Source: Scytonema millei VB511283 (lineage in GTDB: Bacteria > Cyanobacteriota > Cyanobacteriia > Cyanobacteriales > Chroococcidiopsidaceae). Taken from it: DNA of 64,000 nucleotides. Location of the stretch: positions 310,001 to 374,000 of the forward strand of contig NZ_JTJC03000017.1 in NCBI RefSeq assembly GCF_000817735.3, written 5' to 3'. Both the position numbers and the translations under genes were made by a program. Position 1 is the first letter of the stretch. Each line of letters begins with the position of its first letter. Positions 12,551-60,824 of the stretch are shown piece after piece. The notes beneath the pieces were generated by a model. The model was given only the letters and a program-made list of their open reading frames with translations, was not told the origin of the DNA and ran no database searches.

Positions 12551-13231
12551 ATGAAAAATAATTTGACCGAACTATTATCAGTGGAACAAGAACTAACAGA
12601 GCTGCGCGATCGCCTCAAACAATCATTTGCTGTCTTAGATTCACTCACACAAATTCCAGCTCAATTTGCCGCTCTAGGGCAATCATACCAACAATTACAA
12701 GCAAATCTAGAACAGGTCAAAGCAAATAAAGCAGACCTCATCAACTTAGAAACAGATGTTAACTTACGTCTAGCGGCGATCGAAACTGCAATTGATGTCC
12801 GTTGGCGAGAATTTAAAGGAGAATTAACACACTTACAAGACGAACTCGGTAGCGCGGATATTCATTTAAGTAACTACAATGCCGAACTCGCCAAGCAAGT
12901 CAGCGAATTACGCGAAGAGGTATCGAAGCGACTGAAGCATTTTTGGCAAGAATGGACGGCTGACGAGGCAACGCACGCGGCAATTAGCGAAATTGTCGAT
13001 ACTAAATTAAATGCAGAACTAGAAGATTTTATTCAAAAATTAGAGCAAGCAGGCTTTAGTCCCCAATATTTTGAAAAACAACAAAACCTTGAAACAGAAT
13101 TGCGTCTGACGCAATCCTGTTTGCGCGATACCGAGCGCCAGTTGCAAATGATCCGCAACTTTACCACAATCACTGGCTTGACAGTGGCGATCGCCCTTGG
13201 GTTAACAATCGTACAATTGCTGTCGCGGTAG
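12551..13231 (+). CDS. Tail-anchored coiled-coil protein
   Basis: A 226-residue protein. Residues 1-200 are almost entirely charged coiled coil (TELRDRLKQSF, QQLQANLEQVKANKADL, LETELRLTQSCLRDTERQLQ), and the last 20 form one hydrophobic helix (TITGLTVAIALGLTIVQLL) ending in SR, a tail-anchor architecture. It starts 42 bp after the response regulator on the same strand, so it may be part of the chemotaxis operon, perhaps as a scaffold at the membrane. No family recognised. Confidence 0.7.
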   Translation: MKNNLTELLSVEQELTELRDRLKQSFAVLDSLTQIPAQFAALGQSYQQLQANLEQVKANKADLINLETDVNLRLAAIETAIDVRWREFKGELTHLQDELGSADIHLSNYNAELAKQVSELREEVSKRLKHFWQEWTADEATHAAISEIVDTKLNAELEDFIQKLEQAGFSPQYFEKQQNLETELRLTQSCLRDTERQLQMIRNFTTITGLTVAIALGLTIVQLLSR

Positions 13232-13275
13232 GAGTGAGGAGTGAGGAGTGAGGAGTGAGGAGTGAGGAGTGAGGG
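13231..13275. repeat. GAGTGAG heptamer array
   Basis: Six consecutive copies of a 7-bp unit (GAGTGAG / GGAGTGA) directly follow the stop of the coiled-coil gene. The remainder up to 13423 is purine-rich repeat-like sequence; the last stretch, AATGATGAATAACAAATGAC, supplies the PhoD start codon. Confidence 0.9.
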
Positions 13276-15549: not shown

Positions 15550-17901
15550 TTACGCTTCGATGACTACGCGCAGGTTACCGCGTTTTTTGACCACGCGACA
15601 GGCAGTCGTATTGCCAGCACGCTCGAATTCTAGATCGAGTAAGGTAGGACCGACACGTAGATTGTGTATGGATAGACGATTGATGGAGTCTGGTAAAGCC
15701 GGATCGATGACCCGCAAGCAATTATTTGGGGCATCAGGTACGAGATTGATAATTGTTTGCAATAACTGAAAAATGGTTCCCGTTGCCCATGCTTGAGGAG
15801 AACAAGCCACGGGATACTGGACGGGAGCGCGATCGCCATTGCGCTCGTAGCCGCAGAAAAGCTCTGGTGGGCGCTGGTAGGGTTGCTGAAGTGTCATATC
15901 GAATAACCCTTGAAATACGTCCAAAGCTTGATCCACTAGCCCGAGCGATCGCAGTCCCAGCACGATCAGAGAATTATCGTGAGGCCAGACCGAACCGAGA
16001 TGGTAGCCCATCGGATTATAGGCAGGGGATAAACTGCTTAAAGTGCGAATTCCCCAACCGTTAAACATATCTGGCGCTCGGAGCCGTTCGGCAACGCTGT
16101 AAGCTTTTTCAGGTGTAAAAATGCCTAGATGCAAACAATGCCCGGGATTAGAGGTAATACTATCTACTGGTTTGCCTTCCCCATCCAACGCCAATGCGCA
16201 GAAATCTTGGTCAGACAGCCAAAAATCGCGATTAAATCGAACTTTCAGCTCTCTGGCTTCATCCTGCCACTTTTCGGCAAGATCGAGCCGCTTCTTCATC
16301 TGAGCAATTTCTGCCAGTCGCACTTTTGCGGCGTAGACATAAGCCTGCACTTCGCATAGAGCGATCGCCCCCGTTGCGAGTTCTCCTTGACGATTAACGA
16401 TACAATCGCCAGAATCCTTCCAACCTTGATTGGCTAAACCTCCGCGTGACTTGCGAAAGTAGGATAAATATCCCGTTGGCTTGAGGCGGCGATCGATCCA
16501 ATCCATTGCGGCTAAAGCATTTGACCACAAACGATCTAGGGTTTCTAAGTCGTGAGTCCAGGCAAAGTATTCGGCATAGAGCATTAACCACAAAGGAGTA
16601 GCATCGATCGTACCGTAATAAGGCGTATGGGGGATTTCCTGGCAGCGCGCCATTTCTCCCATGCGAATTTCATGTAGAATTTTGCCTGGTTCTTCTTCCC
16701 GCCATTCGTCCTCAGTTTTGCCTTGATAAGCTGCGAGTAAAATTAGAGTTTCGCGGGCGATCGACGGATTTAACATTAAAGTTTGAGCTGCCGCAATCAG
16801 CGAATCTCGTCCGAATAGAGTAGAAAACCAAGGTACGCCAGCGGAAACAGTTTTATACTTACCAAAAGATTGCCGTAGCAAATACATGTCTTGCTCGGCT
16901 CGCTCGACGATATGGTTGAAATCAGCCTTATCAGAGCGAATTCGCGTGCTTTGTTGACACCAGTGCAGTTCCTCTGAGTCTTCTGCTGCTCTTGCTTGGA
17001 CTAATGTATTGGGAGCGTTAACGGTAGAAGCCGAGCGATCGTTGATTGTCATTGACAATCGATAACCGAGCTTTTTGGTTTCGTGCGAAGCCAAGTCTAG
17101 CTGCCAAATTGCCGTATAGCCTTTGAATGAATCTGGCTGAGTGTGTTGGAACTGCAACCGCGATTCCATGATGGAATTATCTAAACCCTGATAAGCAAGG
17201 GTGAGTGTTTCTGGTAGTTGGGAGTCGGGAGTCGGGAGTCGGGAGTCGGGAGTCGGGAATGAGAGTGGTGCGCGATCTAATTGCGACTTGCGACTTGCTT
17301 CCTCAAATCCATCAACTCTGTTGTCCCTCTGTCTTCTTCCATCTACTGCAGCAAGCCGTAGCAGTTTACCGCGCTTTTCTCGATTGAAGCCGCGAATTTC
17401 AAATAAATCGACAAAATCGGCATCAAAGCTCAGGCTAATAGCAACGCTGACGGCACTCGTACTGTAGTTGGAAATTTCTATTTCTTCAAATAGCGCTCCA
17501 TTCAAAACTAATTCGCGACGAATGCCCAAGGTGTCAGCTTTTAAGCGATTATCTACTGTAGGATTCGTACATAAGACGGAAAGGGAAAATCCTTTATCGG
17601 CAGTACTGCTGAGTAAAACAGGCGATCGCCCCTCAATCTGTAATTCTAAGCGACTCAGAAAGCGGCTATCGCAGCAAAATAACCCCATGCTAGCTGCACT
17701 ATCATCGCTATAACAGCCGCCAGCAATATTTCCTAGCGTATCTGTCACCAAAAATAGATCGTCGTCTTTAATCGTCAAAGTTGGCTGTGGTCTTTCGCTC
17801 AACACGCAGGGCCATTCTGGAATTGGCAATTGTTCTGCGGGAACGAATACTCTACCACTTATCTCTAATCTGTCTTGTGTTGCTATCGTATCCAGTGTCA
17901 T
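15550..17901 (-). CDS. Amylo-alpha-1,6-glucosidase / glycogen-debranching-like enzyme with in-frame repeat insertion
   Basis: A 783-residue two-domain glycosidase. The N-terminal GDE_N-type beta domain (PTLTIKDDDLFLVTDTLGNIAGG, MGLFCCDSRFLSRLEL) is followed by an (alpha/alpha)6 barrel with VPWFSTLFGRDSLIAAAQTL, WKDSGDCIVNRQGELATGAI, MGYHLGSVWPHDNSLIVLGL and a C-terminal CSPQAWATGTIFQLLQ. It probably trims glycogen or related alpha-glucans. Residues encoded near 17212-17262 (SFPTPDSRLPTPDSQLP) are translated GAGTCGG heptamers, an in-frame expansion within the N-terminal domain. A glycosyltransferase lies upstream on the same strand. Confidence 0.9.
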   Translation of the reverse strand: MTLDTIATQDRLEISGRVFVPAEQLPIPEWPCVLSERPQPTLTIKDDDLFLVTDTLGNIAGGCYSDDSAASMGLFCCDSRFLSRLELQIEGRSPVLLSSTADKGFSLSVLCTNPTVDNRLKADTLGIRRELVLNGALFEEIEISNYSTSAVSVAISLSFDADFVDLFEIRGFNREKRGKLLRLAAVDGRRQRDNRVDGFEEASRKSQLDRAPLSFPTPDSRLPTPDSQLPETLTLAYQGLDNSIMESRLQFQHTQPDSFKGYTAIWQLDLASHETKKLGYRLSMTINDRSASTVNAPNTLVQARAAEDSEELHWCQQSTRIRSDKADFNHIVERAEQDMYLLRQSFGKYKTVSAGVPWFSTLFGRDSLIAAAQTLMLNPSIARETLILLAAYQGKTEDEWREEEPGKILHEIRMGEMARCQEIPHTPYYGTIDATPLWLMLYAEYFAWTHDLETLDRLWSNALAAMDWIDRRLKPTGYLSYFRKSRGGLANQGWKDSGDCIVNRQGELATGAIALCEVQAYVYAAKVRLAEIAQMKKRLDLAEKWQDEARELKVRFNRDFWLSDQDFCALALDGEGKPVDSITSNPGHCLHLGIFTPEKAYSVAERLRAPDMFNGWGIRTLSSLSPAYNPMGYHLGSVWPHDNSLIVLGLRSLGLVDQALDVFQGLFDMTLQQPYQRPPELFCGYERNGDRAPVQYPVACSPQAWATGTIFQLLQTIINLVPDAPNNCLRVIDPALPDSINRLSIHNLRVGPTLLDLEFERAGNTTACRVVKKRGNLRVVIEA
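17212..17262. repeat. AGTCGGG heptamers inside the debranching enzyme gene
   Basis: About six copies of GGGAGTC/GGAGTCG on the plus strand, read on the minus strand as a repeated PTPDSRL-type peptide without frame disruption. Confidence 0.9.
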
Positions 17902-34615: not shown

Positions 34616-34752
34616 TATAGCGAGCCTAAATGATTTGTGAATTTGGGATATTGCTTGTTAACGGTTGACTGTTAACGGTTAACAGTTAACTGTCAACCGT
34701 TAACAGTCAACCACCACAACGATCGGTTCATGACTCAAATAGAATCGCTATA
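34616..34752 (+). mobile_element. MITE-like element, copy 1 (137 bp)
   Basis: Starts TATAGCGAGCCTAAATGATT and ends with AAATAGAATCGCTATA. The two ends form imperfect terminal inverted repeats of about 25 bp (TATAGCGAnnCTAnnTGA). The core is eight heptamers of CGGTTGA/CTGTTAA/CCGTTAA/CAGTCAA type. A second copy lies at 60702-60824. There is no coding capacity, so any movement would need a transposase in trans. It ends 37 bp before the ABC ATPase start codon. Confidence 0.8.
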
Positions 34753-34789: not shown

Positions 34790-35623
34790 ATGCTTGATAC
34801 CCGCTTCAACGGTCAATTGCGGGAACAATCAACCCAATCGGGACGAGCCGATCTAAATCAACCTAAATTGGAAGTACGAGGAATCTGCAAATCTTATTCC
34901 AATCGCGGCAAGGAATTGGTAGTACTAGAAAAGATTAACTTCCAACTTGACCCTAGAGAATTTGTTTGTTTGGTTGGTGTATCTGGGTGTGGTAAATCTA
35001 CTCTACTAAATATTGTGGCTGGACTCACAGCTCCTTCCGCAGGTCAAGTATTAGTTGACGGTCAGGCTGTGACTGGTCGTCCCGGCTCCGATCGCGGTAT
35101 GGTGTTTCAAGGCTACACGCTTTATCCTTGGCTGACAGTCTCGCAGAATATTGCATTTGGTTTGCAGTTGCGTAAAATGTCTAAAGCAGAGCAGCGAGAG
35201 CGGGTAGCATACTACTTAAACGTAGTTGGTTTAACCCAGTTTGCTAAAGCTTACCCAAAACAATTATCAGGTGGAATGAAACAACGAGTCGCGATCGCTC
35301 GTGCTTTAGCCAACGAACCAGAAGTGCTGTTGATGGATGAACCCTTTGGTGCTTTAGACGCTCAAACGAAAGAACAAATGCAGCAATTCTTGTTAGAACT
35401 TTGGGAGCAAACTCACACAACTGTATTGATGATTACTCATGATGTTGAAGAAGCAATCTTCCTTTCTCAGCGCATTTATGTCATGAGCAGTCATCCCGGT
35501 CGGCTACAACTAGAAATACCTGTTAATTTGCCAGCCAATCGCCATTTAGAAATTAAACTCTCATCGGAATTTGTCGAGATCAAGCGCCAAATTCTGCACG
35601 CTTTGCGTGGTGAGGTTAATTAA
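34790..35623 (+). CDS. ABC transporter ATP-binding protein (NitT/TauT/SsuB type)
   Basis: A 277-residue ATPase: Walker A VGVSGCGKSTLLNIVAG, Q-loop MVFQGYTLYPWLTV, signature LSGGMKQRVAIARAL, Walker B VLLMDEPFGALD and switch His ITHDVEEA. The LYPWLTV and AQTKEQMQ features are typical of the SsuB/TauB group. It pairs with the divergent permease at 33206 and the binding protein 68 bp downstream. The MITE copy just upstream could alter its promoter. Confidence 0.93.
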   Translation: MLDTRFNGQLREQSTQSGRADLNQPKLEVRGICKSYSNRGKELVVLEKINFQLDPREFVCLVGVSGCGKSTLLNIVAGLTAPSAGQVLVDGQAVTGRPGSDRGMVFQGYTLYPWLTVSQNIAFGLQLRKMSKAEQRERVAYYLNVVGLTQFAKAYPKQLSGGMKQRVAIARALANEPEVLLMDEPFGALDAQTKEQMQQFLLELWEQTHTTVLMITHDVEEAIFLSQRIYVMSSHPGRLQLEIPVNLPANRHLEIKLSSEFVEIKRQILHALRGEVN

Positions 35624-37490: not shown

Positions 37491-37529
37491 GGCATTGCCC
37501 AATCCGGTTCTGTTAAAAGTATTAGATCC

Positions 37530-37692
37530 TCGAAGATCCCCCCTAGCCCACGGACACTTTAACGCGAGTTGCTACAACGGGGGATACCCCCGCAACGCAC
37601 TCGCTCCTCAAGTCGGGAAACCCGCCCACGTAAGTGTCCTCCCCTTAAAAAGGGGGGAATATTGCCCCCCGAAGATCGGGGGTTGGGTGGAT
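37530..37692. repeat. Composite inverted repeat cluster (GGACACTT and G-tract families)
   Basis: An outer GATCCCCCCTAGCCCA and GGGGGTTGGGTGGATC pair encloses an inner inverted repeat with ends CACGGACACTTTAAC and CACGTAAGTGTCCTCC and a core ACGGGGGATACCCCCG. The inner unit recurs, shorter and inverted, at 43407-43458. An open frame over 37495-37788 translates only this repeat and is not listed as a gene. Confidence 0.8.
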
Positions 37693-45062: not shown

Positions 45063-45866
45063 ATGACAGCAAAAGCCACCTATGACTTTGCAGGTAAGAC
45101 TATCCTGATTACAGGCGGTGCAGGAGACATTGGCAAAGCGACCGCACTTCGTTTTGCTGCTAATGGTGCAGGTGTAGCACTCTTGGATTTAAACGAAACA
45201 AAGATGGCAGATGTGGCGCGAGAATTAGCAGAGTACAATGTTCCAGTCGCCACATTTGGCTGTGATGTGACAACCTCTGAAGATGTCGCCAAAGCTTTTG
45301 CTGGTGCTGTAGAGCAGTTGGGGCGGATCGACTATGTTTTTAATAATGCAGGCTATCAAGGTTTATTTGCCAAAACTGATGAGTATCCAGAAGATGACTT
45401 TCAAAAAGTCATTGACATCAATGTTGTCGGCGTTTTTCACGTTCTCAAAGCCGCCGCACAACATATGCGCGAATCTGGCGGCGGGGCAATTGTAAATATG
45501 GCAAGTTATGCAGGGGTAGTGGGTCCACCGAATATGCTGGCTTACGCTGCTTCTAAGTTTGCAGTTATCGGTATGACTCAGACAGCAGCAAAGGATCTCG
45601 CTCCTTATGGTATTAGAGTCAACGCTCTTTCTCCAGCGTTAATCGGTCCTGGCATGATGTGGACGCGACAAACAGAATTACAGGCAGCTGTGGGATCTCA
45701 ATACTTTAGTTCAGAACCCAAAGTCGTCGAGCAACAAATGATCGATTCAGTCCCGATGCGCCGTTTGGGAAGCTTAGAAGAGGTTGCTAATAGCGTGGCG
45801 TTTCTCATGAGTGAAGAAGCTAGCTATATTACTGGGTTTAACTTGGAGATTACGGGCGGACAATGA
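45063..45866 (+). CDS. Short-chain dehydrogenase, polyol (sorbitol/xylitol) dehydrogenase-like
   Basis: A 267-residue classical SDR: cofactor motif ITGGAGDIGKATAL, acidic DLNETK after strand 2 (NAD preference), YVFNNAGYQG, catalytic Ser in NMASYAGVVGPPNM, and YAASKFAVIGMT (YxxxK). The C-terminus VAFLMSEEASYITGFNLEITGGQ is standard. Placement between the polyol transporter and its regulator argues for oxidation of sorbitol, xylitol or a related polyol, complementing the mannitol-type enzyme. The stop TGA overlaps the start of a heptamer array. Confidence 0.9.
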   Translation: MTAKATYDFAGKTILITGGAGDIGKATALRFAANGAGVALLDLNETKMADVARELAEYNVPVATFGCDVTTSEDVAKAFAGAVEQLGRIDYVFNNAGYQGLFAKTDEYPEDDFQKVIDINVVGVFHVLKAAAQHMRESGGGAIVNMASYAGVVGPPNMLAYAASKFAVIGMTQTAAKDLAPYGIRVNALSPALIGPGMMWTRQTELQAAVGSQYFSSEPKVVEQQMIDSVPMRRLGSLEEVANSVAFLMSEEASYITGFNLEITGGQ

Positions 45867-46020
45867 CCAGTGACTCCTGACCAGTGACTCCTGACCAGTG
45901 ACCAGTGACTCCTGACCAGTGACCAGTGACTCCTGACCAGTGACTCCTGACCAGTGACCGGTTAACCGTCAACTGTCAACCGTCAACTGATAAGCAATTA
46001 CCCATTACCAATTACCACTT
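45865..46020. repeat. Two-letter heptamer array (GACCAGT and GACTCCT)
   Basis: Thirteen exact 7-bp units, GACCAGT (A) and GACTCCT (B), in the order ABABAABAABABA (45865-45955). GACCGGT, then TAACCGTC/AACTGTC units and TACCCAT/TACCAAT units follow up to about 46018. Confidence 0.92.
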
Positions 46021-60701: not shown

Positions 60702-60824
60702 TATAGCGAGCCTAAATGATTTGTGAATCTGGGATATTGCTGGTTGACGGTTGACGGTTAACTGTCAACTGTTAACCGTCAACCACCACAAAGATCGGTT
60801 CATGACTCAAATAGAATCGCTATA
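60702..60824 (+). mobile_element. MITE-like element, copy 2 (123 bp)
   Basis: Same ends as 34616-34752 (TATAGCGAGCCTAAATGATT ... AAATAGAATCGCTATA) and the same flanks of the core (GGGATATTGC, CACCACAA, GATCGGTTCATGACTC). The core has six heptamers instead of eight, which accounts exactly for the 14-bp length difference. Both copies are in the same orientation here. Confidence 0.82.

Follow-up and report, generated by a model that had tools for sequence, protein, structure and literature searches.

A probable IS630-type MITE with a palindromic heptamer core in Scytonema millei

The window analysed here is a stretch of 64,000 nucleotides from the genome of Scytonema millei VB511283. It carries two copies of an element which we consider, with a probability of roughly 0.92, to be a non-autonomous MITE of the IS630/Tc1-mariner type with a palindromic core of GTTRACN heptamers, a carrier of heptamers and not the main source of the arrays in the genome. 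The element is short and multicopy, has no transposase gene, ends in 26-bp inverted repeats, and is bordered by a TA duplication at sites which are found empty in related genomes. The copy number, the TA duplication and the empty sites are observed; the role of a transposase is suggested by the ends.

The mechanism we propose is as follows. A DDE transposase from a full-length IS630-family element with similar ends would act on the 26-bp inverted repeats, and the MITE would insert at a TA, which is thereby duplicated. The GTTRACN palindrome would form a long hairpin on either strand, and the core would gain or lose whole heptamers while the inner part of the hairpin could invert. During replication, the hairpin would most simply give rise to these changes through slippage and template switching. 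The MITE would thus bring heptamers to new sites without being the chief source of the arrays in the genome.

The element and its insertion sites

The features in the window are as follows.

34616..34752, + strand: MITE copy 1, including the TA target duplication (34616-34617 and 34751-34752); from the sequence and the copy search; both sisters empty here
34616..34641, + strand: left terminal inverted repeat of copy 1; end-motif search
34656..34711, + strand: palindromic core of copy 1, eight heptamers; heptamer parse and folding
34727..34752, - strand: right terminal inverted repeat of copy 1; end-motif search
60702..60824, + strand: MITE copy 2, including the TA target duplication (60702-60703 and 60823-60824); from the sequence and the copy search; both sisters empty here (TA in G001, TC in G002)
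60702..60727, + strand: left terminal inverted repeat of copy 2; end-motif search
60742..60783, + strand: palindromic core of copy 2, six heptamers; heptamer parse and folding
60799..60824, - strand: right terminal inverted repeat of copy 2; end-motif search
34790..35623, + strand: neighbouring ORF, putative ABC-transporter ATP-binding protein, read from sequence alone; its ATG lies 37 bp past copy 1

The initial annotation had described the two copies as sharing imperfect inverted ends and conserved arms, with eight versus six heptamers in the core and a length difference of 14 bp. All of this was reproduced: the copies are 137 and 123 bp long, the heptamer parse gives the same unit numbers, and beyond the core one base differs per side. 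The ends TATAGCGA...TCGCTATA lengthen to 26-bp imperfect inverted repeats with 19 of the 26 positions identical. The end motif TATAGCGANNCTANNTGANTNNTGAA, with up to three mismatches allowed, has four matches in the window, which are both ends of both copies, where 0.02 would be expected from shuffles. The end of copy 1 is separated by 37 bp from the start codon of the ORF at 34790-35623, so an effect of the copy on the leader or promoter of this gene is possible; cyanobacterial relatives of the encoded protein have at most 81% identity in a protein scan of the genome collection.

The genome searched for further copies (G000) comprises 5.97 Mb in 17 contigs. The left-end 26-mer, with up to three mismatches, has 16 matches in the whole genome versus 0 for the reversed control. 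These are 15 of the 16 close copies together with the older copy L019, the close copy L016 being missed because of a one-base insertion. The copy search listed 75 matches, of which 22 are near full-query places (L001-L017, L019-L022 and L026), while L018 covers 62% of the query. The others match in part, in the core alone, or on the opposite strand of the palindromic core. The close family consists of the 16 copies L001-L016, which are 115-137 bp long with the right-hand TA excluded and are without a transposase gene; older copies include L017 and L019-L022. The whole-genome search proposed by the initial annotation has accordingly added copies of both kinds. Another MITE with both ends present (L274) is found on contig C1. 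A tandem duplication that does not involve the heptamers adds 9 bp to the right arm of L008, relative to the remaining close copies. In the older copies L021, L022, L026 and L279 the core also holds a short repeat foreign to it, around CTACACTCCGTGAAGACGG in either orientation; it has the look of a small dispersed repeat that came to be nested in the MITE.

The cross-genome search covered 100 genomes (the window's own, two congeners and 97 others) at E <=1e-9 with the best 8 candidates per genome scored. It gave one full copy in the congener G002, which is Chroococcidiopsis thermalis PCC 7203, and one divergent copy in the other congener, G001. G002 was identified by a sequence of 3,411 bases with 100% identity to the C. 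thermalis plasmid NC_019699.1, which places the window's genome in the genus Chroococcidiopsis. With the same threshold and number of candidates the element was found in 0 of the 97 genomes outside the genus, G090 alone giving a match, to the core only. A search of plasmid records gave two short core matches and nothing more.

The two congeners served as sisters for the empty-site test, in which the flanks of each parsed copy were joined with one TA left and 22 copies were compared with 30 fetched sister loci. For 17 of the 22 copies, among them 12 of the 16 close ones, at least one sister gave an alignment of the joined flanks that spans the junction. Of these 12, 11 have TA precisely at the junction in one sister or both, and for L010 the sister has AG. 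A search for empty sites in relatives had also been proposed by the initial annotation, and 11 of the 16 close copies have such a site with a single TA in at least one sister. For L001, L004, L006, L007, L013 and L014 the site is empty in both sisters, and for six more close copies it is empty in the one sister that aligned, so that most of the spread of the family looks recent. One copy, L012, is common to the window's genome and C. thermalis, and its site is empty in G001. At both window loci the sisters are empty and the junction is TA, but TC in C. thermalis at copy 2; in the comparison of syntenic stretches copy 1 appears as a clean insertion with one TA left.

The joined flanks of L002, L003, L011 and L016 (4 of the 16 close copies) and of L018 were not contiguous among the fetched sister loci; it should be noted that L018 had been left out of the query that fetched these loci. 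For L016 the left flank and the first bases of the right flank are contiguous in both sisters, after which the right flank diverges. Among the older copies, repeats or gaps at the junction make L019 and L021 harder to judge. At L002 (G000:C5:337730-337872) G001 holds 223 bases between the flanks which are missing from the window's genome. No ORF of at least 100 aa runs across the joined site in 15 of the 16 close copies; the exception is L006, which sits 5' (upstream) of an ORF as that ORF stands in both sisters. The window holds another insertion absent from both sisters, 160 bp long (37501-37660) and placed between the 7-bp direct repeats ATTGCCC (37494-37500 and 37661-37667). It is apparently a second small mobile element, unrelated to the MITE.

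A candidate mobiliser and related elements

A scan of the window's genome with the end motif and three mismatches gave 40+43 matches versus 16+15 for the reversed control. Because of this high background single matches carry little weight and pairs weigh more. Facing matches at most 1.6 kb apart form 26 pairs: two at 1,193 and 1,194 bp, one at 561 bp, which is a pairing by chance, and 23 of MITE size. Both long pairs enclose a PF13358 (DDE_3) gene. The genome has seven PF13358 loci, and these two are the ones flanked by the end motif on both sides; the other five do not have such a pair of ends and were rejected as parents. Of the 12 PF13358 loci of C. thermalis 7 were tested, and four have the pair while three do not. 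A related gene there (L116) matches the NCBIfam IS630 transposase model NF033545 with 164 bits (cut-off 100) and also Pfam DDE_3.

The ends of the IS copies are identical to the MITE ends at 19-21 of the 26 positions, which can be compared with the 19 of 26 between the MITE's own two ends, and the resident IS630-family copies have TA on both sides. As single alignments these end matches are weak (E 0.01 to 0.55), and their weight comes from their position at both sides of the gene. Outside the ends a sensitive comparison of IS and MITE gave a best E of 0.2, no more than expected by chance. The MITE is thus like the IS630-family insertion sequences in its ends and flanking TA but lacks the transposase, and the sequence in common is confined to the ends. 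In the matching IS copy examined in the window's genome (L109) the transposase lies in two overlapping frames, which may reflect either a frameshift of the kind normal for these elements or a defect. The initial annotation had suggested looking for a transposase gene with matching terminal repeats. Since two IS630-family elements with similar ends are present in the same genome, it is probably an IS630-type transposase that moves the MITE in trans.

Elements with similar ends around other interiors were likewise met in each of the three genomes. These interiors are a GTAGAGACGTTACATGTAACGTCTCTAC palindrome, one of GGCTTCTAGCCTGC (in C. thermalis) and other heptamer-like repeats. The interiors found within such ends in the genus are GTTRACN, TTAAT-type repeats (L084), ACAAATG/CCAATGA-type repeats (L283 and L285) and two palindromes not built of heptamers. 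In C. thermalis the elements with the GGCTTCTAGCCTGC palindrome, of varying length, form a separate MITE subfamily (e.g. L070, L073, L076 and L088), and the end motif has 73+76 matches there versus 16+15 for the control.

The folding of the interiors was tried for 37 loci, of which eight were dropped because they have no end pair and 29 were parsed. For nine of the 29 the z of the core fold exceeds -2 (L066, L081, L090, L276, L277, L280, L285, L287 and L022) and the other 20 fold better; of the control pieces 19 of 21 have a z above -2. A palindromic interior as a universal requirement for mobility was rejected, since these nine interiors do without it. One could go further and regard the IS630-type ends as a general vehicle with an exchangeable interior, which could enclose and disperse any intergenic repeat that comes to lie between them. 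We hold this extension to be doubtful. If true, it gives heptamer classes a route between loci, perhaps between genomes.

Turnover of the heptamer core

The core is a tandem array of GTTRACN and a palindrome at the same time, and a long hairpin is therefore possible on either strand. The variable number of heptamers claimed by the initial annotation is borne out by the tabulation: the 16 close copies have five (n=1), six (n=3), seven (n=8) or eight (n=4) units, with seven in the orthologue in C. thermalis, and the copies differ by entire units. Removal of one unit from the L007 core gives those of L013, L014 and L015, and addition of one gives that of L004. The L016 core can be derived from L004 by removal of three units or from L008 by removal of two.

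Changes of orientation were also observed. L009 equals L007 after one inversion of the inner core, with 0 residual differences and identical arms. L012 and its orthologue in C. thermalis (L048), which have the same flanks and, in the left end, a base private to the two, differ in the core by one inversion and one substitution, with seven units in both. In a random control 0 of 300 sets of five substitutions could be explained by such an inversion. The breakpoints of the inversions are ambiguous because they are located within inverted repeats. L001 and L002 differ in four core bases and one arm base, and three of the four core changes in L001 would, judged by eye, improve the pairing of the hairpin.

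The outcomes are thus observed, and as mechanism for the changes in unit number and the flips we would suggest slippage and template switching at a replication hairpin. Slippage after landing would agree with the later step of the route in the initial annotation, in which heptamers are first carried by the MITE and then expanded. Alternatively, a few source copies may already have differed in number and orientation when they transposed, so that the length classes were inherited and nothing slipped or flipped in place. In agreement with this explanation, L002 and L003 show no difference anywhere, the core included, and L014 and L015 have a six-unit core in common. It is at variance with the orthologous pair L012/L048, in which the inversion took place after insertion, with the existence of copies that have identical arms but six, seven or eight units, and with L004 and L016, which have arm-specific bases in common yet eight versus five units. 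We consider inheritance from source copies possible but the less likely account, and prefer changes within inserted copies. One short palindromic array at many sites, with the empty states known, makes unit gain, unit loss and hairpin flips countable per insertion. Heptamer repeats, abundant in cyanobacteria, have received little study, and the family lends itself to a comparative approach to them.

Heptamer arrays in the genome and known systems

The GTTRACN pattern GTTRACNGTTRACNGTTRACN was counted in 19 hand-picked genomes. It has matches in 13 of them, with hundreds in some genomes of other families, and 298+301 in the window's genome versus 38+30 and 15+17 in the congeners. A sample of free arrays was taken among the matches listed, all on contig C1, where 45 clusters were found and 44 used, the one left out being the known copy L011. 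In 43 of the 44 no MITE end was recognised within four mismatches of the 17 fixed positions, a threshold at which strongly decayed ends may be missed; the next-best are two arrays with five mismatches. The idea that free arrays are decayed MITEs was therefore rejected, L274 being the sole exception. Two window stretches of 19.9 kb, largely syntenic with both sisters, contain 19 non-MITE arrays with a period of 7 or 14. A clean empty site in the sisters was found for 0 of the 19 (one array being comparable with C. thermalis only), and the same slots in the sisters hold heptamer-like or other sequence, at times another heptamer class.

These observations bear on the suggestion of the initial annotation that MITEs are a route by which heptamers spread in the genome. 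One part of it stands, in that arrays do reach new sites by way of the MITE. In its full form, with most heptamer arrays of the genome being descendants of a MITE whose ends have decayed, it would also be in keeping with GTTRACN matches being ~9 and ~19 times more numerous here than in the two congeners. Another heptamer, the reversed control pattern, is however commoner here too (28+40 versus 12+7 and 2+2), arrays of GTTRACN are present in genomes of other families, the element itself was detected in none of the 97 genomes outside the genus (E <=1e-9, best 8 candidates scored per genome), and neither the ends missing from the free arrays nor the lack of clean empty sites fits a general route. 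We regard the full form as very improbable. From the missing ends and the filled slots it would seem that heptamer arrays mostly turn over in place, with the MITE transporting one class among them. This sets a bound on what transposition contributes to heptamer spread, a contribution that is real but apparently minor compared to turnover within fixed intergenic slots.

That the element is instead an RNA gene or a conserved regulatory RNA hairpin, dispersed incidentally, is hardly credible: its fold is very stable (RNA z -7.8 to -10.0 against shuffles, DNA z -7.4 and -7.6) and copy 1 sits just 5' of a start codon, but the fold forms on both strands, both sisters are without the element at both window loci, the window has no Rfam match at the gathering threshold, and in the eight seven-unit copies both-sided changes were seen in 0 of 49 predicted pairs (covariation term +0.74), a test with little power since these copies are close. 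The initial annotation had named compensatory changes, or a lack of further copies and empty sites, as outcomes contrary to a MITE; none of them was encountered.

Among the matches listed in the literature, judged by titles and abstract openings, no cyanobacterial MITE with a heptamer core was found. The Nezha MITE of Anabaena/Nostoc, reportedly described by Zhou in 2008, is said to have a similar length and foldable inverted repeats, and its parent is said to be an ISNpu3-like element; Nezha is not known to have a heptamer core. Anabaena sp. 90 is described as having 147 complete or partial MITEs, and an IS with comparable inverted repeats was not evident there (PMC3542288). A tandem repeat inside a MITE is described for BrickBuilt and MITE464/PgRS of Porphyromonas gingivalis (PMC4596501). 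The present MITE is like these in having ~10-20 copies, a tandem-repeat interior and ends resembling resident ISs. The P. gingivalis elements are described with units of 23 and 41 nt, IS5-type ends and no uniform target duplication (PMC4596501), whereas the present one has heptamers, IS630-type ends, a TA duplication and a palindromic core. It is a new MITE family, which ranks with an established type because repeat-bearing MITEs are already known in P. gingivalis, and its hairpin core is unusually labile.

Cyanobacterial short tandem heptamer repeats are known as STRR. The TAACTGA repeats are described as a heptamer unit, mostly intergenic and variable in number, and in that account a mechanism of horizontal spread was not evident (PMC4679880). 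STRR and TAACTGA repeats have the heptamer unit, the mostly intergenic position and the variable number in common with the core of the present MITE. The free arrays of the window's genome differ from the MITE in that terminal inverted repeats are missing from all but one of those sampled and that the slots compared are also filled in the sisters. The position of a slot is often conserved between species while the heptamer class is swapped, as at 45864-45959, 13230-13274, 17216-17258 and other places in the window; the slot at 45864 holds TGACCAG in the window's genome, AGTCGGG in G001 and GGGGACAA in C. thermalis.
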